In this document: positions 431 through 24,470 of the stretch, in pieces
How the letters are laid out: each line of letters begins with the position of its first letter
How positions within the stretch are numbered: position 1 is the stretch's first letter
DNA from: Planctomycetota bacterium
Lineage (GTDB): Bacteria > Planctomycetota > Phycisphaerae > FEN-1346 > JAACEH01
Reading direction: 5' to 3'
Length of the DNA stretch: 27,567 nucleotides
Assembly: GCA_016935955.1 (NCBI GenBank)
Contig: JAFGPY010000325.1
Location: 1 to 27,567, forward strand
Made by a program: the position numbers and the translations under genes
Notes under the pieces: model-generated
Database searches by the model: none
What the model saw: the letters and a program-made list of their open reading frames with translations, nothing else
What the model was told of the DNA's origin: nothing

Positions 431-3400
431 ATGAGAAGGACCTCATTTGTCGCTGTGCTGCTGCTGGTGTGCTGTGGGCCGGTGTCGGCCCAGGAAGTCC
501 AGCTCGACCTCTCCGACGGTTTCAACTGGGACATCTGGTGCGGCGCCAGGGAGTTCCAGGCCCTGATGATGCATGACCTGGTGGACATGGGCATCGACCT
601 GATGGAGATGCAGGGCAGCTACGACACCCACAACGGGCCGACGTACCTGCTCGGCAACGGCGCATGGCTGATCTGCGAGATCGACGCCGAACTGGCCGAA
701 GAGATGGGTTGCGTCCAGGACTCCGGCGGCGTCTACATGGGCTACGCCGGCCCGGCGAGCTGGAACCGCCCAAGCTACAAGGACGGCACGCAGGGCACGC
801 CAATAGACGGCGTCCTGACCGGCGCCGACCGTACCTACCACATCGCTTCGCATGGCGGCAACGCCACGCTGCCCGGCGACTGGACCGAAGTCGAAGACAC
901 CACCACCTGGAACCTTGGCGGCAGGATCTCCGGTGAAGGGCTGGGCGTGAAGTTCAACATGATGTGCAACTGGACAACGCACAGCTCGGCCATGTGCAAC
1001 GACGTCTCGGTGACGGCCGAGTTGCCCGACGGGCAGAAGGGCTCGTACAACAACGTCAACTTCGTCGTGGCCGTGATGGACGGCAGCAACGGCGGCCGCC
1101 AGAAGCGCCTCTGGGCCCTCTACGGCACGGACGGCACTGACGAGGAACTGCTCTTCGCCTGGAACGATTCGGCCGCCGACCTGCGTCCGCAGATGGATGC
1201 CCTGGATCCCTCGGTCTACGAGCCGGACTTCAAGGCCGTCAACACGACGACCCAGTACTACAACTACGGTAGCGGCCCAACCGGCAACGTGGTGACCAAG
1301 AACCACACGATGTACGAGTTCGGCCAGCCGCTGGCTCTGAATCCCTCGAAGACCCTCTGGGGCTTCAAGATCGACGACAGCAATCCGGCGAGGAACTATA
1401 CTGCCCGCGGCGTAGCCATCTGGGCCGCCACGGCCTTTGCGGTTAGCGGTGAACCGGGCCGGCCGGACCCGGTGGTCTCGACGGTGGAGGTCGATCCGGA
1501 CCATATCCCGAGCGACGGGTCGGCGCCGGCCGTTGTGACCGTCACCCTGAAGGACCAGTACCATACCCTGCTGCCCGGTCTGGAAGGAATGATTGACTTC
1601 GCCGTGACGGGCGGCGGCATCAGCACGATCAACTTCGTCGAGGAGTCGAGCGAGGGCGTCTACGTCTACGAGTTCACCAACGACACGCCGGGGGAGAAGT
1701 ACCTGGAGGTCTCCGTGGACTTCGACCCGCCGGAGGCCCCGATCGTCATCAGCGGTCTGGGCAGGGTCATCGTTTATGATCCGGCCGACGTGCCGGTGGC
1801 CGACGCCGGGGCCGACATGATCGTCGAGGACCTGGACGAGTCGGGCGACGAGAGCGTCATGCTCGACGGCTCGGCCTCGACGGACCGCAACGGCACGATC
1901 GTCAGCTACGTCTGGAGCTGGTACGGGACGCAGCTCGCCGCGGGCGAGACGGCCATTGTGACGGTGCCGCTCGGCGCTCGCGAGATCGTTCTGACCGTGA
2001 CCGACAACGAGGGCTACACCGGCAGTGACTCGCTGTGGATCGAGGTCCGAGCCCATGGCTACGTGTCCGACCTCGTGCAGCTTGATATCTCGGGCGGCTT
2101 CAACGTGGACTCGCTGTGGGGCAGCCATGAGATGAAGGCCCTCTACTGGTATGCCTGGGACCACGACCCGGACTTGGACGGCACCGAGGCCCAGGGCTAC
2201 ACGACGAACGCCAACCCGCTGTTCCGCAACCCGGACATCGGCTGGATCGTCTGGACAGAGTACGGCAACGGCTTTGCCGCCGTGGTCAACAACACGCGCG
2301 ACACCTACACGACGGACCACCAGTGGTGGAACCCGGCGTACATCGACGGCGTCGAGGGCCTGCCTGAGAGCGGCTACCTGGCCGGCGTCACGGCGGACTA
2401 CTACATGGCCTCCTCGAGCGGCAACCCGGTCATGCCGGGCGACCTGGTCGAAGCGGGCGACGACCTCGAACTGCTGGCCCAGCTTGGCCCGGGCGGCTAC
2501 GCCGTCACCGGCCACGGCATGGACATCAGGCTCAACACCATGGCCGTAGGCTGCAGCAACAACACCGTCGACTGGCAGAAGGTCGAGGCCTACGCCGAGT
2601 TGCCGCTCAGTCAGCAGCGAAACTACGGGGCGCTGAACTGCGTGCTGGCGGCGTTTAATTACGCCCGGACGAACCGCGGACGTCACATGCGTCTGGCGGC
2701 CGTCTACACGGACGACAGCGAGGAAATCATCTGGGCCTGGACGGACGATGCCGACGACACCACGCCGTACCCGTCGGAACTGGTCCCGGTCGGCCCGGAC
2801 TACAATGCGCTGGTTCAGACCACGAGTTACTACGACAGCTTCAGTGGCAGCACGGGTGGCGTCGGCTGGCGCGACTACGCTCTGTACGAGTTTGCCGCTC
2901 CTGTGTTGCTGAACGGCAGGAGGGTGCTGAAGGCCCTGAGGCTGTACGACGGCAGCCCGACGACCAACTACCAGATTCGCGGCATCGCGATCTTCGCGGC
3001 CACGGCCGCGCCGTCGGACCTGCCCGGCGACCCGACCATCGAGGTCGTTCTGGAGGAAGACCTGCATTGGGTCTACCAGAACACGCCGACGCTTCTGTCG
3101 TACGGCCGCGGCCACAATGTGCGGTTGACTGTCAATGTCCTGGACCTGAACTACAACAACGAGGTCAGCATCGAAGTGGCCAAGGTGGACGGCAGCGGGC
3201 CGGGCGTCGTGACCATCGAGGACGATGATCCGCCCTCGCCCCTGACGAAGCTGCTCTACGGCAGCGTGCGAGGCACTTACCCCGCCAGCTACGGGGCCCT
3301 GGTTCTGCGGGTCACGGCCACGGGCGACCGGGCCGGCGCGACCGTCCAGGACGTTCCCTTCACGGTTCGCCGCCTGGGCGACATCGACGGCAACGGCGGC

Positions 3401-3559
3401 GTGGAGCCGACCGATTTCTCGGCCCTGATCAACGCCCTGAACGGTATGCCTCCGGCGGAGTACCCCGCCCGGGCGTATGACCTTGACGCCAATGGCGGCG
3501 CCGAACCGGGTGATGCGTCGATGATCATCAACATCCTGAACGGGTATCCGGTGCCGTGA
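431..3559 (+). CDS. Large secreted surface protein: duplicated domain, Ig-like, PKD, dockerin-like tail
   Basis: This encodes 1042 residues. The start at 431 is chosen because a classical signal peptide begins there (MRRTSF, hydrophobic core, cleavage after VSA near residue 20) and a GGGGG stretch lies 8 nt upstream. In-frame ATGs at 341 and 359 would put about 30 polar residues before the signal. Domains in order: repeat A (about 23-340, starting VQLDLSDGFN); an invasin/Big-1-like Ig domain (about 345-450); a PKD domain (about 453-540, with DGSASTD, YVWSW and LTVTDNEG); repeat B (about 549-858, starting VQLDISGGFN); an Ig-like domain (about 875-980); and a dockerin-like pair of calcium loops (about 982-1042, each followed by a helix ending LNG). 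Repeats A and B are clear paralogues of unknown fold and function. The last 165 or so residues match the end of the protein at 8750. It is probably exported and surface-associated, with calcium-dependent binding or anchoring. No catalytic motif was recognised. Confidence 0.85.
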   Translation: MRRTSFVAVLLLVCCGPVSAQEVQLDLSDGFNWDIWCGAREFQALMMHDLVDMGIDLMEMQGSYDTHNGPTYLLGNGAWLICEIDAELAEEMGCVQDSGGVYMGYAGPASWNRPSYKDGTQGTPIDGVLTGADRTYHIASHGGNATLPGDWTEVEDTTTWNLGGRISGEGLGVKFNMMCNWTTHSSAMCNDVSVTAELPDGQKGSYNNVNFVVAVMDGSNGGRQKRLWALYGTDGTDEELLFAWNDSAADLRPQMDALDPSVYEPDFKAVNTTTQYYNYGSGPTGNVVTKNHTMYEFGQPLALNPSKTLWGFKIDDSNPARNYTARGVAIWAATAFAVSGEPGRPDPVVSTVEVDPDHIPSDGSAPAVVTVTLKDQYHTLLPGLEGMIDFAVTGGGISTINFVEESSEGVYVYEFTNDTPGEKYLEVSVDFDPPEAPIVISGLGRVIVYDPADVPVADAGADMIVEDLDESGDESVMLDGSASTDRNGTIVSYVWSWYGTQLAAGETAIVTVPLGAREIVLTVTDNEGYTGSDSLWIEVRAHGYVSDLVQLDISGGFNVDSLWGSHEMKALYWYAWDHDPDLDGTEAQGYTTNANPLFRNPDIGWIVWTEYGNGFAAVVNNTRDTYTTDHQWWNPAYIDGVEGLPESGYLAGVTADYYMASSSGNPVMPGDLVEAGDDLELLAQLGPGGYAVTGHGMDIRLNTMAVGCSNNTVDWQKVEAYAELPLSQQRNYGALNCVLAAFNYARTNRGRHMRLAAVYTDDSEEIIWAWTDDADDTTPYPSELVPVGPDYNALVQTTSYYDSFSGSTGGVGWRDYALYEFAAPVLLNGRRVLKALRLYDGSPTTNYQIRGIAIFAATAAPSDLPGDPTIEVVLEEDLHWVYQNTPTLLSYGRGHNVRLTVNVLDLNYNNEVSIEVAKVDGSGPGVVTIEDDDPPSPLTKLLYGSVRGTYPASYGALVLRVTATGDRAGATVQDVPFTVRRLGDIDGNGGVEPTDFSALINALNGMPPAEYPARAYDLDANGGAEPGDASMIINILNGYPVP

Positions 3560-4269: not shown

Positions 4270-5193
4270 ATGAATGACTTCGCGTTCCATCATTCCGGCC
4301 GCATCGTTGCGGCTCTGTGTCTTATCGCGGCCGTCCTTTTGGCCGCCGGTTGCGGAGAGGACTGCACGCCGCCGTCGAAGCCGCCGCAGGATCGCAACGT
4401 CGTCAGCCTGGTCCCGAGTATCACCGAGATCATTTTCGCCATGGGGCAGGGCGACCGCATGATCGGCCGCAGCAACTACTGCCTGTACCCGCCGCGCGTT
4501 CTGACGTTGCCCGCCTACGGCAGCTACACGGACGTCAGCATCGAGGAACTGCTGAGCGTTCACCCCGACCTGGTCGTCTTCAACACGTCGAAGGCCGAGA
4601 GCTACGGGCGGCTCACGGCGGCAGGCATCCGCTGCATCGCGCCGCCGACCGACACGGTCGAGCAGGTCTACGAGGCGATCGACATTCTGGGCGCCGAGCT
4701 GGGCGCCGCCGACGATGCCTCCGCCCTGGCCGCGCGGCTCAGGGGCCAGCTTGACACGGTGCGTCTCCGTGCGGCCGACAAGCCGCGGGTTCCCACGCTG
4801 ATGGTCTTCCCGAACATCATGGGCGAGGGCAACCAGGTCCGGGTCATCGGGCGCAAGACGTTCGTCTCCGAACTGCTCGACGTGGCCGGAGGCGAGAATG
4901 TCGTGCAGGCCGACGGCTACCCGCGCGTGCACTTCGAGACGATCACGCAATGGCCCGTGGAGGTCATCATCATCAGTGCCCCGGGCGACATCGCGCCGGG
5001 CCTGAGCGACGAGCAGTACCGCGAGCCGTGGGCCCGCTGGTCGTCGATTCCCGCCGTCGCGAAGGGGCGCATCGTCGTCCTTCGCGAGGCCTTCCTGACC
5101 ATTCCCGGCCCTCGCATGGCCGAGGCCGCCGAACTGCTGCTGCGGACCGTTCACGATGATCGGGCGACGGAACCGCAGGGGGGCGAGCCGTGA
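4270..5193 (+). CDS. btuF: Corrinoid ABC transporter substrate-binding lipoprotein BtuF
   Basis: This encodes 307 residues. It is predicted to bind a corrinoid outside the inner membrane and deliver it to the permease encoded next. The lipoprotein signal is visible: a hydrophobic stretch and lipobox LAAGC with the lipidated Cys at residue 28. The mature part has the periplasmic-binding-protein fold typical of BtuF: NVVSLVPSITEIIFA near the start, then IEELLSVHPDLVV, and GRKTFVSELLDVAGGENVV in the second lobe. The open frame extends upstream to 3832, but that part only translates intergenic palindromes. The ATG at 4270 gives the signal peptide and lies just after a promoter. Its stop overlaps the btuC start (GTGA). 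The family also includes haem- and siderophore-binding proteins. Corrinoid is preferred because of a cobalamin riboswitch 270 nt after btuD. Confidence 0.85.
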   Translation: MNDFAFHHSGRIVAALCLIAAVLLAAGCGEDCTPPSKPPQDRNVVSLVPSITEIIFAMGQGDRMIGRSNYCLYPPRVLTLPAYGSYTDVSIEELLSVHPDLVVFNTSKAESYGRLTAAGIRCIAPPTDTVEQVYEAIDILGAELGAADDASALAARLRGQLDTVRLRAADKPRVPTLMVFPNIMGEGNQVRVIGRKTFVSELLDVAGGENVVQADGYPRVHFETITQWPVEVIIISAPGDIAPGLSDEQYREPWARWSSIPAVAKGRIVVLREAFLTIPGPRMAEAAELLLRTVHDDRATEPQGGEP

Positions 5194-6215
5194 AGCTGAC
5201 CGCTCGCCGATACGCTCTGGTCATCCTCGTCGCGGCCGCCGTCTGGCTGATCGTTGCCGCCGCGTCGCTGATGGTCGGTCCGGTCAACATCTTTGCCGTG
5301 GACGATCTGGTCCGCCGGCAGATGCTCGAGAGCCGCATCGCGGAGGTCGTCACAGCCGCCCTGGTGGGCGCGGCCCTGGCGGCCAGCGGCGCGGCCTTCC
5401 AGGCCCTGCTTCGCAATCCCCTGGCCGACCCCTACATCCTCGGCGTCAGCGGCGGGGCCAGCCTGGGGGTCATCCTCGGCACGCTGCTGGTGCCGTCGGC
5501 GTGGCTGTTCATCGAACTGCCCTTGGGCGGCACCCTCAGCCTGGCGGGCCTGTGCGGCTTCGTCATGGCCCTGGTGGCCATCGTGGTCGTCTACCTGATC
5601 GCCCAGCGCCGCGGGCGACTCGATCCCTACCGGCTGATTCTCACGGGCGTGGTCGTCAGCGCCTTCTTTTCGGCAGCCATCATGCTGGCCGTAGCCCTGG
5701 CCGGCGACCGCCTGCGCAACGAGCTGATCTTCTGGTTGATGGGCGGGCTGGGCAACCCGCGCGACCAGCGCGGCGAACTGGCGCTGGCCGCCATGGGTAT
5801 CGTCGTGGGCCTGGGCGTCTTCGTCTACCAGGCCAAGGGCTTCAACCTGCTGGCCTTCGGCGAGGACGTGGCTGCAAGCCTCGGCCTTGCCGTCGAGCGT
5901 CACCGCCGCATGGCCTTCGTCGTGGCCTCGTTGCTGGCCGGCATCTCGGTCAGTCTGGCCGGGCCGATCGGGTTCGTCGGGCTGATCGTGCCGCACCTGG
6001 TGCGCATGGTCTTCGGATCCGACCATCGGCTGCTCGTGCCGCTGAGTGTTTTCGGCGGGGCCATCTTCCTGATGGTCGCTCATCGTCTGGTTCTGCTGAT
6101 TCCCTATGAGGTGGGCGGCGGTCTGCCGGTCGGCATCGTGACGGCAATGTGCGGCGTGCCGTTCTTCATCCTGTTGCTGGTCCGCGGGCGCGGCATCCGG
6201 GGAGGTGTCCTGTGA
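5190..6215 (+). CDS. btuC: Corrinoid ABC transporter permease BtuC (FecCD family)
   Basis: This encodes 341 residues, a usual length for the family. It forms the membrane channel of the importer. Multiple hydrophobic helices run the whole length. The FecCD hallmark is near residues 55-90: a GAALAASGAAFQALLRNPLA segment followed by DPYILGVSGGASLG. The late GPIGFVGLIVPHLVR segment is the coupling region that contacts the ATPase. The start is GTG at 5190, overlapping the btuF stop by four nucleotides, with an AGGGGG Shine-Dalgarno at about 5174-5180. It ends TGATG, sharing one base with the btuD start. Specificity for B12 rather than iron chelates is inferred from context. Confidence 0.88.
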   Translation: MKLTARRYALVILVAAAVWLIVAAASLMVGPVNIFAVDDLVRRQMLESRIAEVVTAALVGAALAASGAAFQALLRNPLADPYILGVSGGASLGVILGTLLVPSAWLFIELPLGGTLSLAGLCGFVMALVAIVVVYLIAQRRGRLDPYRLILTGVVVSAFFSAAIMLAVALAGDRLRNELIFWLMGGLGNPRDQRGELALAAMGIVVGLGVFVYQAKGFNLLAFGEDVAASLGLAVERHRRMAFVVASLLAGISVSLAGPIGFVGLIVPHLVRMVFGSDHRLLVPLSVFGGAIFLMVAHRLVLLIPYEVGGGLPVGIVTAMCGVPFFILLLVRGRGIRGGVL

Positions 6216-7030
6216 TGACGACCGCCAACGCAGCCATGCTCGGCCTGGCCAACCTCTCGTTCAGCTACGGCGCCGGCCGGTTCCAACTCCGCGGCATTTC
6301 CATCGAGATGGGCTGCGGCGAGTTCGTCGGGCTGCTCGGTCCCAACGGCAGCGGCAAGAGCACGCTGATCAAGCTGGTGATGCGGCTGCTGGACGCGGAC
6401 GCGGGCACGGTGACAGTGGCGGGTCGCGACGCGCGTCAGTACCGGTTGCGCGACTACGCGCGGCAGGTGGCCTATCTTCCCCAGGAGAGTCGCGCGACCT
6501 TCGCCTTCACGGCGCTGGAGGCCGTGCTCATGGGCCGCAGTCCGCACATGGGGGCGCTGGGCTTCGAGGCCGACGACGATTACGCGAAGGCCCGTGCCGC
6601 CCTGGATCGCGTCGACGCCGCCCGGTTCGCCGACACGATGCTCGACGAACTCAGCGGCGGCGAACGCCAGCGCGTCATGCTGGCTCGGGCCCTGGCCCAG
6701 GAGGCGCCGCTGCTGGTGCTCGACGAGCCGGCGTCGTTCCTCGACATTCGCCACCAGTACGACATGTACCGGCTGCTGAGGGCCGTGGCCCGCGAAGAGG
6801 GCAGGGCGTGCCTGTGCGTGGGCCACGACGTGAACGTGGCGGCGGCGTTCTGCGATCGGCTGGTGTTTCTCAAGGACGGGCGGTTGGAAGCGGTCGGGCG
6901 GCCGCACGACGTCGTGACCGGCGAACTCATCCACCGCGTCTACGGCATCGAGGCGGACGTCTCCACGGGATCGGCTGGCCAGCCGGTGGTGCAGCCGCGG
7001 GTGGCGGCGTTCGATTCGGGTGCACCTTAA
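6215..7030 (+). CDS. btuD: Corrinoid ABC transporter ATPase BtuD
   Basis: This encodes 271 residues and provides ATP hydrolysis for the importer on the cytoplasmic side. All nucleotide-binding motifs are present: Walker A GPNGSGKST (42-50, Lys48), Q-loop Gln90, signature LSGGE (146-150), Walker B LLVLDE with Asp170-Glu171, D-loop near 176-177, and H-loop His204. The ATG at 6215 is chosen over upstream in-frame starts because GGAGG at 6201-6205 lies 9 nt upstream and the start shares a base with the btuC stop. The gene ends in a repeat-rich gap without a clear terminator. The order F-C-D with overlaps indicates one operon. Confidence 0.88.
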   Translation: MTTANAAMLGLANLSFSYGAGRFQLRGISIEMGCGEFVGLLGPNGSGKSTLIKLVMRLLDADAGTVTVAGRDARQYRLRDYARQVAYLPQESRATFAFTALEAVLMGRSPHMGALGFEADDDYAKARAALDRVDAARFADTMLDELSGGERQRVMLARALAQEAPLLVLDEPASFLDIRHQYDMYRLLRAVAREEGRACLCVGHDVNVAAAFCDRLVFLKDGRLEAVGRPHDVVTGELIHRVYGIEADVSTGSAGQPVVQPRVAAFDSGAP

Positions 7031-7050
7031 GACGTGGCATGGTTTTGAAC

Positions 7051-7182
7051 CCCTCTCCCTCGACGGGAGAGGGTGGCCCGCCGAGCGACAGCGAGGCGCG
7101 GCCGGGTGAGGGTGACACCGCGTCGCAACGGTCCGCCTGCTCGTCCCCCTCACCCCATCCCCTCTCCCTCCAGGGGGAGGGG
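7051..7182. repeat. Facing pair of CCCTCTCCC hairpin repeats
   Basis: Two C-rich hairpins lie after btuD. CCCTCTCCC at 7051-7059 pairs with GGGAGAGGG at 7065-7073, a perfect 9-bp stem. A 10-bp stem with one T-G pair joins 7159-7168 to 7173-7182. The outer sequences mirror each other (AACCCCTC... and ...GAGGGGTT), so the unit is itself an inverted repeat. It may protect or end the btuFCD mRNA, but no T-run follows. Confidence 0.6.
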
Positions 7183-7258
7183 TTCCGCCGCCGAACGCGC
7201 GCGAACGAGCGCCACGTTCCTGAAGCGCGCCCTTCGATTTGTCGCAAGACGGTTTTGC

Positions 7259-7287
7259 TTGACCGCGCGGTCATTGTGTGTTATAGA
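7259..7287 (+). promoter_or_regulatory. Sigma-70 promoter of the riboswitch transcript, with palindromic operator candidate
   Basis: TTGACC at 7259-7264 and TATAGA at 7282-7287 are separated by 17 nt. Transcription would begin around 7294, a few bases before the first riboswitch stem (7298). A perfect 14-bp palindrome TGACCGCGCGGTCA at 7260-7273 covers the -35 region and may be a repressor or activator site. No regulator is assigned. Confidence 0.7.
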
Positions 7288-7297
7288 TAATCTTGTT

Positions 7298-7460
7298 GCA
7301 GGTGTCCCGACTTGGGGTCGGGATGAAAAGGGAAGCCGGTGCAAATCCGGCACGGTCGCGCCGCTGTGATCGGCCGACGGTCCCGCAGAATGCCACTGTC
7401 CTTGCCGTAAGGATGGGAAGGCGCGGGAGCCGAAGGGCCGTAAGTCAGAAGACCTGCCTG
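7298..7460 (+). ncRNA. Cobalamin riboswitch aptamer
   Basis: The conserved cobalamin riboswitch elements are in order. The closing stem is GCAGGT (7298-7303) with ACCTGC (7452-7457). The GGGAAGCCGGTGCAAATCC core starts at about 7330. A GCCGCTGTGAT B12-box segment follows, then the peripheral GAATGCCACTG...GGGAAGGC arm, and the 3' AAGTCAGAAGACCTGCC signature. The aptamer begins a few bases after a good promoter and is followed by a hairpin and an intrinsic terminator. This indicates transcriptional attenuation: bound B12 should favour termination at 7567-7599. The next gene is a PEP-CTERM protein at 7806, not a recognised B12 gene. Confidence 0.95.
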
Positions 7461-7516
7461 CGATGGTTACGAGAGTCTTCGCGAGAAAGACAGCGTAGCA
7501 ACGTAGGCCCTTGTCG

Positions 7517-7543
7517 GACCGGCACACCGCGGCTCTGCCGGTC
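7517..7543 (+). other. Hairpin between aptamer and terminator
   Basis: GACCGGCA (7517-7524) pairs perfectly with TGCCGGTC (7536-7543) around an 11-nt loop. It lies in the expression platform of the riboswitch. No sequence obviously complementary to the terminator arm was found, so its part in switching is unknown. Confidence 0.55.
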
Positions 7544-7566
7544 GAAAGATGTGGCCGTCATTGTTG

Positions 7567-7599
7567 CCCTGGCTTCGCTCGGCGAAGGCGGGGTTTTTT
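7567..7599 (+). terminator. Attenuator terminator of the riboswitch
   Basis: The 5' arm 7567-7578 pairs with 7582-7593 over 12 positions, with one G-G mismatch and one T-G pair. The loop is TCG and six T residues follow at 7594-7599. It lies about 107 nt after the aptamer and 206 nt before the start codon at 7806, with no gene in between, as expected of a riboswitch expression platform. Confidence 0.88.
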
Positions 7600-7805
7600 G
7601 TTGTCCTGACGCACGCCCTTGCGATGCGCACCCGGCGGCGGCAGGTCGATGAACTCTCCCCTCGTAATCTCCCTGTTCAGCAATGGCCGTCCTTGGCGCC
7701 GCGTCAGCGCCACAGGGGGCCGGGCGCGCCGGCGTAGGCGGGCGTGTCCCGAGAAGCCGCGGCCTTTATGGAACGAGGGCCGCAAACATCCTGAAGGAGA
7801 CTTCG

Positions 7806-8624
7806 ATGAACCGCATCATGTTGTGCAGTGTGTGTGTCGTGGCGTTGCTCTGTCAGACGTCGTGGGCCGATCCCTGGGCCGACATCGTCGTTTCGTACAA
7901 TGCCGGCGACGCGACCGATTACACGAATTCCTCGGTCGTTCTGGGCGAGCCCAGCCGCACGACGGCCGCCTGGCCCGAGGGCACCGAGAGCGTCCGCATG
8001 ACGGCCTCGGCGTGGCAGGAGAGCGAGGTCCTGAAGATCGGCAACGGGGGCAGCCTGGTGGTCGGATTCCGGACGCCCGTCGAGAACGATCCGCTGAACC
8101 CGTTCGGCATCGACCTGCTCATCTTCACGAACCTGGCCTATGCCTCGTCCGACTGGCCGGCCAACCAGACCATCGGGTCGCCGCTGTATTCTTTTGGCGG
8201 CGCGATCGGCACAATCTCCGTCAGCCAGGACGGCGTCCTCTGGTACCAGGTTACCAGCACCGGTCCGATGTTCCCGACGCACGCCTACCTGAGCGCCGAG
8301 GCCGACGCCTATGCCACGGGAGCGACGCCGACCGACTACACGCTGCCGGTCGACCCGTCGCTGTCGGGCGACGACTTCGCCGGCCTGTCGCTTACGGCGG
8401 CCCTGGCCCTGTATAACGGCAGTGGCGGCGGCTTGGGCATCGACCTGTCGGCCCTCGAGGGCGGCACGGTCGGCCTGGACTGGATTCAGTACGTGAAGAT
8501 CGAAGGGGCCACCAACGCCCTGGACGGGTTCGCCGACGTAGCGGCGGTCCCCGAACCGGCGACGATGCTGCTCCTGGGCGGCGGTCTGGCGGCCATGGCG
8601 ATGCGCCGACGCCGCGCGCGGTAA
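7806..8624 (+). CDS. PEP-CTERM surface protein under a cobalamin riboswitch
   Basis: This encodes 272 residues. The signal peptide is at 1-21 (cleavage SWA/D). The body is rich in beta-strand-like Gly/Thr/Ser segments, including GNGGSLVVGF and NPFGIDLLIF near residues 80-110. The C-terminal sorting signal is complete: VPEPATM at about 248-254, a short hydrophobic helix, then an arginine cluster ending RRRRAR. Proteins of this type are cut and processed by an exosortase; none is encoded in this window. AAGGAG at 7794-7799 lies 6 nt before the ATG, which fixes the start. The only promoter seen upstream is at 7259, so expression should depend on the riboswitch. This suggests a role in corrinoid binding or uptake at the cell surface. 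That role is inferred from regulation and from adjacent btuFCD; the fold itself was not recognised. Confidence 0.85.
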   Translation: MNRIMLCSVCVVALLCQTSWADPWADIVVSYNAGDATDYTNSSVVLGEPSRTTAAWPEGTESVRMTASAWQESEVLKIGNGGSLVVGFRTPVENDPLNPFGIDLLIFTNLAYASSDWPANQTIGSPLYSFGGAIGTISVSQDGVLWYQVTSTGPMFPTHAYLSAEADAYATGATPTDYTLPVDPSLSGDDFAGLSLTAALALYNGSGGGLGIDLSALEGGTVGLDWIQYVKIEGATNALDGFADVAAVPEPATMLLLGGGLAAMAMRRRRAR

Positions 8625-8640
8625 GACGACGTGAAGTAAC

Positions 8641-8694
8641 GGCAACCGGATCGCGGCGAGCCGCCCCGTTCCGTCGCGACCGGTTGCCTCTCTT
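8641..8694 (+). terminator. Terminator after the PEP-CTERM gene
   Basis: GGCAACCGG(A)TCGCG from 8641 pairs with CGCGACCGGTTGCC ending at 8688, a 14-bp stem with one bulged A. TCTCTT follows at 8689-8694. The T-tract is weak, so read-through into the 8750 gene is possible. Confidence 0.65.
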
Positions 8695-8749
8695 GTGATT
8701 CCGGGGACGCGGACTGCAATCGCGGCCCGATCTTATTCGAGGATGTGCG

Positions 8750-10591
8750 ATGGTTCGCATGGTGAGGATGATTCTGGCCTGCACGCTGTCGGTTCTCGGT
8801 GCGACGATGTTCGCAGCTGCCGACGACGGCGCGTGGACGCATCGCGGCCGCGACGTGGCTCGCAACAGTGTGGCCGATCCCGGTGCGGCGGCGCCTGCGA
8901 TCGCGACGCCGCGGTTCGTGGCGTCGGTCCCGGACGTCGACCTGGTGGGCCAGAGCGCGCCGGTCGTGGCCGACCACAAGGTGTTCGTCAGCGGTCGGCG
9001 GACCACGCTCGACGGCGACACCGAAATCGTCACGGACGTGGTGGCGGCCTTCAGCGAAATCGACGGGCAATTGGTCTGGGCCGAGCCGGTTGGCATCGCG
9101 GAGTGGGACAGCTTCAGCCCGCCGACCGTGGACCTGGCGCGCGGCAACGTGCTGATGGCCTCGGGCAACGCGGTGACGGCCCTGGACATGGACAGCGGCG
9201 CGCAGGTGTGGCAAGCCACGCTGGGCACGCGGCCGGTGGTCAACAGCAGCATTTGCGTGTTCGGCGACCAGGCCTTCGTCATCGACTACACCGGGGCGAT
9301 GCCCGGCGCGACGCTTTACGTCCTGAACCTCGATCCGAACCACGCGACCCTGGCGGCAGGGGAGGTGGCCTGGACGCAACCGATCAACAAGTGCGGCGGA
9401 GGCGACGAGGTGGCCGTTGACGAGTCGGGCGTCCCGATGCTGATCGTGACCGATTCGGACGGTTATCTGCGGCAATTCTCGCCCGACGGACAGACGGGCT
9501 GGGTGCTCGACGTTCCGGGGGCCGGCAGCTTCTATCCCCCGCCGCCGTTCGGTGCGTTCTTCGGCGGTTCGACGGTCGTCGAGGGGCGCGTCTATGCCGC
9601 CACGTACGAGTTCTACGGCGTCGAGGATTCGGGCCTGCTCTATTGCGTCGATGCGACGACCGGCGCGGAGATCTGGAGCGAACCGTCGGAGCGGACCGAT
9701 GCGATTCCGATTGTCACCGATTCGCTGGTGATCCTCAGTGCCGGGCTCGACGGCTATGGCAGCGTGCCCAAGGTAGAGGCCTTCGACAAGGTGACCGGCC
9801 TCAAGCAGTGGGAGTGGACGGGCGGCGGCGGATGGACCGTGCAGCCGGTGCTCGTGGGCGACACGCTGTACGTCGGGGCGCTGCCGGTCGACGACGACTA
9901 TGCGCCGTGCACGGCGCTGTACGCCCTGGACCTGACGAAGACGCCCGACGAGCCGGGTTTCATCGTCGCCAGCTACGCGGGGGCCGGCAGCAGTCCGGCC
10001 TTCGCCCATGGCAACATCTACACGATCGGGGCCGCAGGATTGCACGCCTTCGGTCCGGCGGTGACCCTGGCCGGCGACCCGGCGATTGAGGTGGCCACCG
10101 AGGACGGGCTGGACTGGGTCTATCAGAACACGCCGAACATTCTGGCCAAGGGCGGGCACTACGTGACCCTGACGGTGACCGTGACGGACCTGAACGGCAA
10201 CGACAGCGTCCGCGTCGCGGTGGCCAAGCGGCCGGGCAGCGGCGTGGGGGAAGTCGTAATCGCCGGCGGCGCGACGACGTTCGAGAGGCTCATCTACGGT
10301 TCCGACCGCAGCTTGGGCCTGGACGGGTACCTGACGCTGGACGTGACGGCCGCGGGCAACGTCGCAGGCAGCACGACGATCGGCGTGCCGTTTCGTTGCC
10401 GCGTGCTCGGAGACATCGACGGCAACGGAGGCGCGGAGCCGACCGACATGTCATCCCTGATCAACACGCTGAACGGCATGAAGCCGCCGGGCATTCCCGA
10501 CGCGGCGTTCGATCTGGACGCCAATGGCGGCGCCGAGCCGGGAGACCTGTCGCTGCTGATCAACATTCTGAACGGTCTGCCGGTGCGGTAG
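8750..10591 (+). CDS. Secreted PQQ-like beta-propeller protein with Ig-like and dockerin-like tail
   Basis: This encodes 613 residues. The ATG at 8750 has GAGG at 8739-8742; in-frame ATGs at 8762 and 8768 are possible alternatives. A signal peptide ends near residue 24 (FAAA/DDG). Residues of about 25-440 show PQQ/YncE-type propeller strands: repeated 'APVVADHKVFVS', 'VTALDMDSGAQVWQ', 'LYCVDATTGAEIW' and 'VEAFDKVTGLKQWEW' segments, each blade ending in a Trp. Residues of about 445-550 form an Ig-like domain, and about 552-613 two dockerin-like loops (DIDGNGGAEPTD and DLDANGGAEPGD). The last 165 or so residues match the end of the 431 protein. No ligand is shown by the sequence. Propellers of the BtuG type bind cobalamin on the Bacteroides surface, and the neighbours here are B12 genes, so a corrinoid-binding role is worth testing. 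A general surface scaffold is the alternative. Confidence 0.82.
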   Translation: MVRMVRMILACTLSVLGATMFAAADDGAWTHRGRDVARNSVADPGAAAPAIATPRFVASVPDVDLVGQSAPVVADHKVFVSGRRTTLDGDTEIVTDVVAAFSEIDGQLVWAEPVGIAEWDSFSPPTVDLARGNVLMASGNAVTALDMDSGAQVWQATLGTRPVVNSSICVFGDQAFVIDYTGAMPGATLYVLNLDPNHATLAAGEVAWTQPINKCGGGDEVAVDESGVPMLIVTDSDGYLRQFSPDGQTGWVLDVPGAGSFYPPPPFGAFFGGSTVVEGRVYAATYEFYGVEDSGLLYCVDATTGAEIWSEPSERTDAIPIVTDSLVILSAGLDGYGSVPKVEAFDKVTGLKQWEWTGGGGWTVQPVLVGDTLYVGALPVDDDYAPCTALYALDLTKTPDEPGFIVASYAGAGSSPAFAHGNIYTIGAAGLHAFGPAVTLAGDPAIEVATEDGLDWVYQNTPNILAKGGHYVTLTVTVTDLNGNDSVRVAVAKRPGSGVGEVVIAGGATTFERLIYGSDRSLGLDGYLTLDVTAAGNVAGSTTIGVPFRCRVLGDIDGNGGAEPTDMSSLINTLNGMKPPGIPDAAFDLDANGGAEPGDLSLLINILNGLPVR

Positions 10592-22950: not shown

Positions 22951-23660
22951 GCGGGACGGCAGGCGAGTCCGTGCGGCTGGCCCCCTCGGCGGGTACCATG
23001 CCTGCCCCTGTCGCAGATCCCGAGCGCCGCCGAGGGACAGGCATGCCGAATGGTTCTCGTCTCGCGCATGGCTGCGGGGCAGCCATGGCACCCGCCGCAG
23101 AATACCGAAATCCGCTGTAGGACACGGCCTCTGCCGGCTAACCCGCCGCTGGCCGCCGATTCCTGACAGTTCCCTCTGAAGGACCAGATGCCAGAACCGG
23201 CCGATGGTGCCGTGCCATACACATGGTACACACGGGCGGCCCCACCATGTGCCATCCGAGTCGCCCCAGTGTTTCCGAATCTCGACGTTGAAGGGCAGCA
23301 AGTAGGCTTCCGCTTTGTGCGGACACGTTTCCCAAGGGCATCGTTGTATTCTAAGTCTAGCTAATACAATGCCTTGTGTTGTGATAGTGCGTGTTTCCAA
23401 GAAGTGGCACGGGTTTTGCCATTTCTTGGGGTAAAGGGAATGTGTGTCTCCTGCCGGCCTCGTGAGGGGCTTGGGGGTTGCCTGCGCCATGGCTGAATTC
23501 CTGGGGCCATGGGGCGGGGAGCGCGGCCATGCTCCATGCTCTCAGCGGCAAGGCAGGGCGACACGTGCGGGCGACGTGCCGGCTGCCGGTCACTGGGCCG
23601 AGGGGCTGCGGCGTGGAATGCCGTTGGAGCTGCATCTACGAAAGGGCAAGGATCGTGACT
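22951..23660. other. 710-nt gap: repeat unit, sigma-54-like promoter, long leader
   Basis: A GGGTGCCATG-type unit occupies 22988-23096. Its ends are 13-bp inverted repeats with one mismatch, and its interior resembles 13574-13682. From 23100 to 23345 nothing is recognised. A minus-strand translation there looks somewhat protein-like (Trp-rich) but has no identifiable family or ribosome site. A TACAAT box lies at 23365-23370 without a good -35. The hairpin and sigma-54-like site at 23397-23429 are listed separately. The rest is leader for the caspase gene. Confidence 0.5.
23397..23429 (+). promoter_or_regulatory. Sigma-54-type -24/-12 element inside a 13-bp palindrome
   Basis: TGGCACG (23405-23411), four bases, then TTGC (23416-23419) gives GG-N10-GC, the exact sigma-54 spacing and consensus. 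The site lies in an inverted repeat: CCAAGAAGTGGCA (23397-23409) pairs with 23417-23429 with one G-T pair. It is about 240 nt before the caspase ATG. Sigma-54 control of PEP-CTERM genes is known in other bacteria. The overlap with a palindrome means it could instead be an RNA hairpin or a repeat. Confidence 0.45.
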
Positions 23661-24470
23661 ATGACACTGAAGCGACTCTGTTTCGTGGTGACGTTGGTCA
23701 TGTTGCTGGGCACTGCGGCTCAAGGTCGCGAGGTCTGGTTCCTCGGGGTCGGCAACGACGGCTATGACGACGACACCTCGGCCGCATTTGCCGCCCTGTC
23801 TGCCCAATGGACGGCCACGGGCGACACGGTCCACGGCCAACTGTTCGTCAATCACGGTGGCACGCAGATCGTCTCGGACCTGGCGTGGCTGGTCACCAAC
23901 GCGGGGCCCGGTGACTTGGCCGTGTTCTACTACAGCGGACACGGCGGTTACGAGAACGAGAACAACGGCGACGAGTTGGCCGGATGGGCCCTCGACTCCT
24001 ATGACGAGACCATCGGCCTGACCGGCGGCACGTGGGCCCGTGAGGACGACCTCACGGCCGCACTGACCGGGATCAACTCCGGTGTCACGCTGCTGACGAT
24101 CTTCGACACCTGCTACGGCGGCGGATTCGTCGGCGGCACGCAGGACCTCAATGCGCTGGACAATCTTCTGTTCATCGCGGCCTCCACCGAACTGACGCTG
24201 TCCTACGGGGGCGATCCGCTCAGCGTCCTGACCGAGCAACTGGTTGCCGGCGTGGCCGCCGGTCTGCCCGCCGACACGAACTTCGACGGGATTCTCACTT
24301 TCGACGAGTGGGTGGCCTACGCTCAGGCAAACATCAGCGGGCAGAAGACCACGCCCTACGTCGGCTTCAGCGGCGGCAACGACTACGCGATCATCGTTCC
24401 CGAGCCGGCCACGCTTGTCCTGCTCGGCTTCGGTCTCGGCGGCCTGTTCGTCCGTCGGCGCAGCCGGTAG
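23661..24470 (+). CDS. Caspase-like (C14) protease with EF-hand loop and PEP-CTERM anchor
   Basis: This encodes 269 residues. The ATG at 23661 has AAGGA 8 nt upstream (23648-23652) and begins a signal peptide (1-22, AAQG/R); upstream frame is not protein-like. The caspase fold is shown by the first strand VWFLGVGND (25-33), the catalytic His94 in FYYSGHGG, and Cys151 in IFDTCYGGGF. An EF-hand loop DTNFDGILTFDE lies at 205-216 with Asp/Asn/Asp and Glu at positions 1, 3, 5 and 12. The sorting signal is VPEPATL at 246-252, a hydrophobic helix, and RRRSR. The protein should be an exported cysteine protease, possibly calcium-activated as metacaspases are, anchored or processed by an exosortase. 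The substrate is unknown. Activity is plausible because both catalytic residues are kept. Confidence 0.85.
   Translation: MTLKRLCFVVTLVMLLGTAAQGREVWFLGVGNDGYDDDTSAAFAALSAQWTATGDTVHGQLFVNHGGTQIVSDLAWLVTNAGPGDLAVFYYSGHGGYENENNGDELAGWALDSYDETIGLTGGTWAREDDLTAALTGINSGVTLLTIFDTCYGGGFVGGTQDLNALDNLLFIAASTELTLSYGGDPLSVLTEQLVAGVAAGLPADTNFDGILTFDEWVAYAQANISGQKTTPYVGFSGGNDYAIIVPEPATLVLLGFGLGGLFVRRRSR

Follow-up and report, generated by a model that had tools for sequence, protein, structure and literature searches.

The 27,567-nt stretch of DNA analysed here (the window) comes from contig JAFGPY010000325.1 of a member of the Planctomycetota (assembly GCA_016935955.1) and carries a cobalamin riboswitch followed by the gene of a 272-amino-acid (272-aa) surface protein of the PEP-CTERM, or exosortase-sorted, type. 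The aptamer of the riboswitch lies at 7283-7475 on the + strand, where cmscan (Infernal) aligns the full RF00174 model (positions 1-189) with a score of 133.9 bits (E 7.2e-34) against a gathering score of 31.5, the sole Rfam match above gathering threshold anywhere in the window. The aptamer is of the cobalamin class and is predicted to respond to that ligand; the interval 7298-7460, in which an earlier note made from the bare sequence had placed it, forms the core of the match. Downstream on the + strand is the intrinsic terminator of the expression platform (7566-7599), made up of a stem-loop at 7566-7594 with a folding energy of -20.7 kcal/mol (z -3.47, none of 200 shuffles being equally stable) that is closed by six T residues at 7594-7599, as the same note had read it. 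In the leader alignment a block of 47 bases at the terminator is identical in L001, the locus of the closest relative retrieved, with the flanking sequence diverged.

The promoter that the earlier note added to these elements fared less well. A consensus scan of 7000-8800 returned no sigma-70-like site (0.2 in shuffles), and TTGACC at 7259-7264 with TATAGA at 7283-7288, which can be read by eye as promoter-like elements, is weak evidence; a 14-base block with TTGAC at its end is common to the leaders of the window and L001. Of the full attenuator that had been claimed, the aptamer and the terminator are confirmed and the promoter is not; any antiterminator is hypothetical. Neither can attenuation be extended to the whole family, as a crude scan of the 300-330 nt downstream of the aptamer found a terminator-like site in 6 of 71 leader regions, compared with 8.8 in shuffles. 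It is established that an RF00174 aptamer coupled to a terminator switches expression off with ligand, and because of this the switch in the window would by analogy be an OFF switch that is off when cobalamin is bound.

A leader of about 330 nt separates the aptamer from the start codon of the 272-aa gene (7806-8624, +, ATG at 7806), which has an AAGGAG ribosome-binding site, read from the sequence, at 7794-7799 on the + strand. The only Pfam match of the protein is to the PEP-CTERM sorting motif PF07589, at residues 247-269 (8544-8612, +), with 31.6 bits against a cut-off of 20.7, and TIGR02595 is matched with 26.1 bits against a cut-off of 16. The C-terminus has the PEP motif, a hydrophobic helix (251-271) and a basic tail, so that the downstream gene is indeed a PEP-CTERM gene, as had been proposed. 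Inspection by eye, without a signal-peptide program, showed no lipobox in the signal peptide, where Cys15 comes after LL; the mature protein would span residues 22-246. The protein is 73% identical to that of L001.

Although no other domain is recognised by Pfam, the best Foldseek matches of the 272-aa protein are to the B12-binding domain of BtuH and BtuGH from Bacteroides. A two-step profile bridge, via the bridge protein L088 and the alignment A2, leads from the family to BtuH with E values of 2.7e-29 and then 1e-36, and homology to the C-terminal B12-binding domain of BtuH was thus found by Foldseek, by VIA and by the profile bridge. The 272-aa protein and the B12-binding domain of BtuH/BtuGH are thus remotely homologous. 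The match in fold is independent of any linkage to riboswitches, because it was found without using the riboswitch. Asn399 of BtuH2, which contacts phosphate, aligns with N109 of the protein, and an Asn is found here in 49 of 50 family members. The idea that the protein is a corrinoid-capture factor gains independent support from the remote homology to BtuH, and the protein would, judging from its sequence relationships, bind B12. The statement that the first gene of the unit is unlike known B12 genes does not hold. In addition, btuFCD-like genes end about 250 nt upstream of the aptamer. Two further readings, P0139 and P0160, have a DUF4465 (BtuJ-type) domain and a BtuH-like domain in one reading frame and are perhaps fusions, or adjacent genes read together. 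In these two and in P0179 and P0142 the second half has its own prepilin-like or signal-peptide-like start by eye, hence all four may be adjacent genes read as one and they were given no weight.

The count of homologues with an upstream riboswitch, which the earlier note had suggested as a check, was made with a family profile (A1) of 50 homologues taken from the 120 listed among 506 found. Scanning a genome collection with this profile gave 196 relatives, of which the best 80, picked by protein similarity alone, were kept as loci. When the 80 genomes of these loci were searched in full with Infernal, 75 had RF00174 (37 of 40 and 38 of 40). Once the riboswitches had been placed on the loci by coordinates, a same-strand riboswitch lay upstream of the family gene in 70 of 80, at a distance of 46-2505 nt (median 191), whereas chance linkage within 600 nt would be expected at roughly 8e-5 per gene. 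Neither of two outcomes that the note had named as refuting its reading, the lack of an Infernal match and a general lack of riboswitches among homologues, was thus observed. Both cobalamin motifs were found in 64 of the 70 mapped stretches, with the other 6 having a cobalamin box that by eye is diverged or cut. The riboswitch is the sole RF00174 match (E<=1e-3) of its genome in 55 of the 70 linked loci, and in relatives that so often have just one cobalamin riboswitch a single operon is indicated.

The composition of this operon was followed over the 80 loci with profiles of the family, of a propeller, of a prepilin-type protein that consists of N_methyl and DUF1559 in the members scanned, and of c10, a secreted family. 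The most common orders are riboswitch-family-prepilin (34 of 80) and riboswitch-family-propeller-prepilin (22 of 80), followed by riboswitch-prepilin-c10-family (4), riboswitch-family alone (4) and riboswitch-family-propeller (3); 13 loci have other orders, and in ten of these 13 no riboswitch was mapped. In 62 loci the downstream sequence is 2800 nt or longer; 59 of these have the prepilin, for which up to 3 kb upstream and up to 4 kb downstream were counted, and 25 have the propeller. There are 69 prepilin matches (E<1e-10) in the 542 kb that make up the operon neighbourhood and 3 in 610 kb outside it. The loci of the window and L001 have the order family-propeller without a prepilin, and in the L001 genome three riboswitches precede family-propeller, propeller-family-prepilin and a prepilin alone, hence each cobalamin riboswitch found there stands before these three protein types. 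The last of these contexts is a lone prepilin-type gene behind its own cobalamin riboswitch (L142:436-1428).

The prepilins of the operon differ at their C-termini. Of 55 examined, those ending in ...(Y/F)xPDW always occur with a propeller (14 of 14) and those with an ...NGFLSDDD-like end never do (0 of 11), with 30 of the 55 fitting neither pattern. The c10 family, with the sequence 'DDIEFWVGSGSN ... WGYRWDG', occurs with the family gene in 8 of 80 loci (L004, L005, L017, L053, L054, L065, L071 and L078), and a Pfam scan of three members gave a dockerin only in one and no match in two.

In the window the propeller is the next gene on the strand (8750-10591, +) and encodes a 613-aa secreted beta-propeller of the PQQ/BamB type (PF13360) with a C-terminal dockerin (PF00404), in the same gene order as in relatives. 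The structural model is a propeller, poor at residues 441-598. Among the matches listed by profile and by Foldseek, those to tetrathionate hydrolase, BamB and quinoprotein dehydrogenases come closest, and an identification with BtuG was not obtained, BtuG being absent among the 25 PDB sequences and 50 Foldseek rows listed. Between the two genes is a long GC-rich hairpin (8641-8688; z -2.0 for the stretch 8615-8710) that possibly limits readthrough into the propeller gene.

A sample of 149 genomes was drawn from the same phylum around G009; RF00174 occurs in 127 of them and a family match (E<=1e-3) in 17. Seven matches are strong (E<1e-40, including that of the centre genome G009), six of them riboswitch-linked and the seventh, G191, at a contig end. 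Five of the ten weak matches are riboswitch-linked (G091, G125, G183, G208 and G215) and the others (G137, G143, G169, G171 and G176) are unlinked at the places scanned, three covering the C-terminal end only. The riboswitch does not invariably stand before this operon in the phylum: when 60 stretches downstream of riboswitches were taken from 56 of the sampled genomes, mostly in table order with some at contig ends omitted, 10 had a family, propeller, prepilin or c10 match. A TonB plug match begins within 1 kb after the riboswitch in at least 21 of the sampled genomes, as tallied by eye among the rows listed, so that this switch stands before a TonB-receptor gene there and before the surface operon elsewhere.

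Porins do not pass a molecule as large as B12, and its textbook route across the outer membrane is BtuB. The B12 physiology of the relatives was followed in 40 genomes hand-picked from the 70 riboswitch-linked ones, many of them draft metagenome-assembled genomes and all of them from relatives of the window's organism. All 40 have exosortase (PF09721), 36 have a FecCD match, which is strong (E<1e-60) in 31 and weak in 5, and 29 have the B12-type MetH domain. There is one in-frame stop within the aligned stretch of 14 of 30 MetH matches, and in the six of these that were checked it stands at the final position of the stretch or two before it, which indicates the natural end of the protein. CobS was not matched in 36 of 40 genomes (4 matches, 3 above cut-off) and a TonB plug was not matched in 34 of 40, the chromosome-level G024 and G054 included, with the positive control seen in E. 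coli, Caulobacter and Bacteroides. Lacipirellula limnantheis (locus L054), a cultured planctomycete, likewise has no plug match, and its FecCD matches are weak. Such relatives, which seem to need B12 (MetH in 29 of 40) and mostly show no CobS and mostly no plug, must rely on a route other than BtuB.

The contrast in plug domains is also apparent across the phylum sample, where a plug is found in 107 of 149 genomes. It is present in 1 of the 7 genomes with a strong family match, compared with 106 of the 142 others (p 0.002), in 7 of the 17 genomes that match the family at all, compared with 100 of 132 (p 0.007), and in 6 of the 40 riboswitch-linked genomes, compared with the same 100 of 132 (p 5e-12). 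These p values ignore relatedness, and the inverse relation may partly reflect clade membership. The coordinates covered by the earlier note take in neither the operon that relatives conserve nor the absence of a TonB receptor from most relatives examined.

Taken together, the 272-aa protein is probably an exosortase-anchored B12-capture protein in a scavenging system that is mostly without BtuB. When cobalamin is abundant it would bind the nascent leader RNA and transcription would halt at the terminator (7566-7599), and when it is scarce termination would be lifted and the 272-aa protein and the downstream propeller produced. The protein would then be secreted and sorted by exosortase through its PEP-CTERM tail, with the displayed BtuH-like domain capturing cobamides at the cell surface, a step suggested because of the homology to BtuH. 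The captured B12 might be passed across the outer membrane by the propeller and, in relatives, the prepilin-type protein, putative roles in a transfer whose route is a guess, before a BtuFCD-type transporter would import it. A bolder form of the proposal is a TonB-independent uptake that replaces BtuB in many receptor-less planctomycetes, the BtuH-like protein, often with the propeller, capturing cobamides and a dedicated prepilin-type protein of a pilus or pseudopilus carrying them to or through the outer membrane; this is possible, if rather doubtful.

A number of observations weigh against B12 capture by the family. Direct phmmer and profile searches of PDB sequences with the protein and the family did not return BtuH. 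Gln333 of BtuH2 falls in an alignment gap, the family offers no clear equivalents of its Trp577/Leu578 and His476/Tyr510/Trp511, which are not confidently alignable, and the acidic DxNxNG loop kept in the BtuH-like set is absent from the 272-aa protein. Ten of the 80 loci have no mapped riboswitch, and whilst 4 of these have less than 450 nt upstream and one of the remaining 6, L017, starts inside its operon, the other 5 still have none when rescanned at E<=0.5. A strong FecCD match is absent in 9 of the 40 genomes (4 with none, 5 weak), a TonB plug is present in 6 of the 40, and no relatives of BtuF, BtuC or BtuD (E<=1e-8) were found in the DNA retrieved for 79 of the 80 loci.

In the window itself transporter genes of this kind do lie close by, on the + strand from 4270 to 7030. 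The first encodes a BtuF-like ABC substrate-binding lipoprotein (4270-5193, +, PF01497, lipobox by eye), which scores 62.3 bits with the NCBIfam model of BtuF against a cut-off of 234 and has its best NCBIfam match in TIGR04281, also below cut-off. It is followed by a BtuC-like permease of the FecCD family (5190-6215, +, PF01032, 259.8 bits), the best NCBIfam match of which is BtuC with 211 bits against a cut-off of 461, and by a BtuD-like ATPase (6215-7030, +, PF00005), which best matches the corrinoid ABC transporter ATPase with 240.6 bits against a cut-off of 537, the models of F420-0 and heme transporters scoring nearly as high. Upstream of these genes the window encodes a 1042-aa secreted protein (431-3559) with Invasin_D3, PKD-like and dockerin domains, and further on, at 23637-24470, a PEP-CTERM protein with a caspase-like (Peptidase_C14) domain.

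It might be assumed that a surface operon of this composition serves adhesion or biofilm formation in response to B12, the PEP-CTERM and prepilin proteins attaching cells to B12 producers or to surfaces at low B12 and the BtuH-like fold no longer binding B12. Both types of protein are often surface or matrix components, the prepilin is the most constant partner of the family gene (59 of 62 loci), and most of the corrin contacts of BtuH2 are unrecognisable in the family. However, the homology is specifically to the B12-binding domain, 49 of 50 members have the Asn that contacts phosphate, and genomes that have MetH and FecCD matches and mostly lack CobS and the TonB plug need a capture route, which makes adhesion as the main role unlikely.

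The same unrecognisable contacts, together with btuFCD-like proteins that fall below the NCBIfam cut-offs for B12 and an ATPase that matches the F420-0 and heme models nearly as well, could also be taken to mean that the family binds not complete cobamides but a precursor of B12, a corrinoid degradation product or some other tetrapyrrole. This is less likely still, as the riboswitch is of the cobalamin class and incomplete corrinoids could hardly be completed in the 36 of 40 relatives without a CobS match. Finally, that the neighbourhood is due to chance, the riboswitch serving another gene and the PEP-CTERM protein being an ordinary surface protein, could be entertained in that PEP-CTERM genes are numerous in such genomes and the 330-nt leader intervenes, but it is contradicted by the linkage in 70 of 80 loci, by the profile bridge and by a fold match obtained without the riboswitch, and can safely be set aside.

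If the 272-aa protein is a capture protein, its nearest counterparts are to be sought in Bacteroidetes, from which BtuH, BtuG and BtuJ are known (PMC8941943, PMC12751083). BtuH and BtuGH of Bacteroides thetaiotaomicron (PDB 7biz and 8blw) have the homologous B12-binding domain in common with it, and resemble it further in being surface proteins under cobalamin-riboswitch control with a propeller partner, fused in BtuGH (PMC12751083). The 272-aa protein differs in having a PEP-CTERM tail instead of a lipid anchor, in being a single domain without PKD, in its shortened loops on the B12 side and in lacking the acidic DxNxNG loop; the operon of its relatives adds a prepilin-type protein, and most of these genomes are without the TonB plug. 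It is proposed in PMC12751083 that in Bacteroides BtuH hands B12 to the BtuBG complex. This hand-over might serve as a model for the propeller of the window, which like BtuG, a propeller of the YncE type, is secreted, although it is itself of the BamB/quinoprotein type.

The likeness to the BtuB-BtuFCD system of Gram-negative bacteria lies in the FecCD permease of the relatives and in the riboswitch that elsewhere in the phylum precedes a TonB-plug gene, and the difference in the 34 of 40 operon-bearing genomes without a Plug domain. Membership in the BtuJ/DUF4465 family was rejected, because none of the 50 family members scanned matched PF14717 at E<=1; a TPAY motif was not found in the 272-aa protein by eye. 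Mucisphaera is a planctomycete genus. Its DUF4465 protein binds B12, and proteins of this family are likewise secreted B12 binders, linked to riboswitches in Bacteroides and found in planctomycetes (PMC13398666).

In PMC12530212 it is c-di-GMP riboswitches, and not cobalamin ones, that are linked to PEP-CTERM genes. No open-licence paper in PMC was found on a BtuH-like PEP-CTERM protein, a prepilin behind a cobalamin riboswitch or BtuB-less B12 uptake in planctomycetes. With three proteins, the way in which B12 enters these bacteria becomes directly testable. Were B12 capture by the 272-aa protein and its relatives to hold true, a function would be suggested for a surface family of more than 500 proteins and for a subfamily of prepilins, and capture of the BtuH type would extend from lipoproteins to exosortase-anchored proteins.
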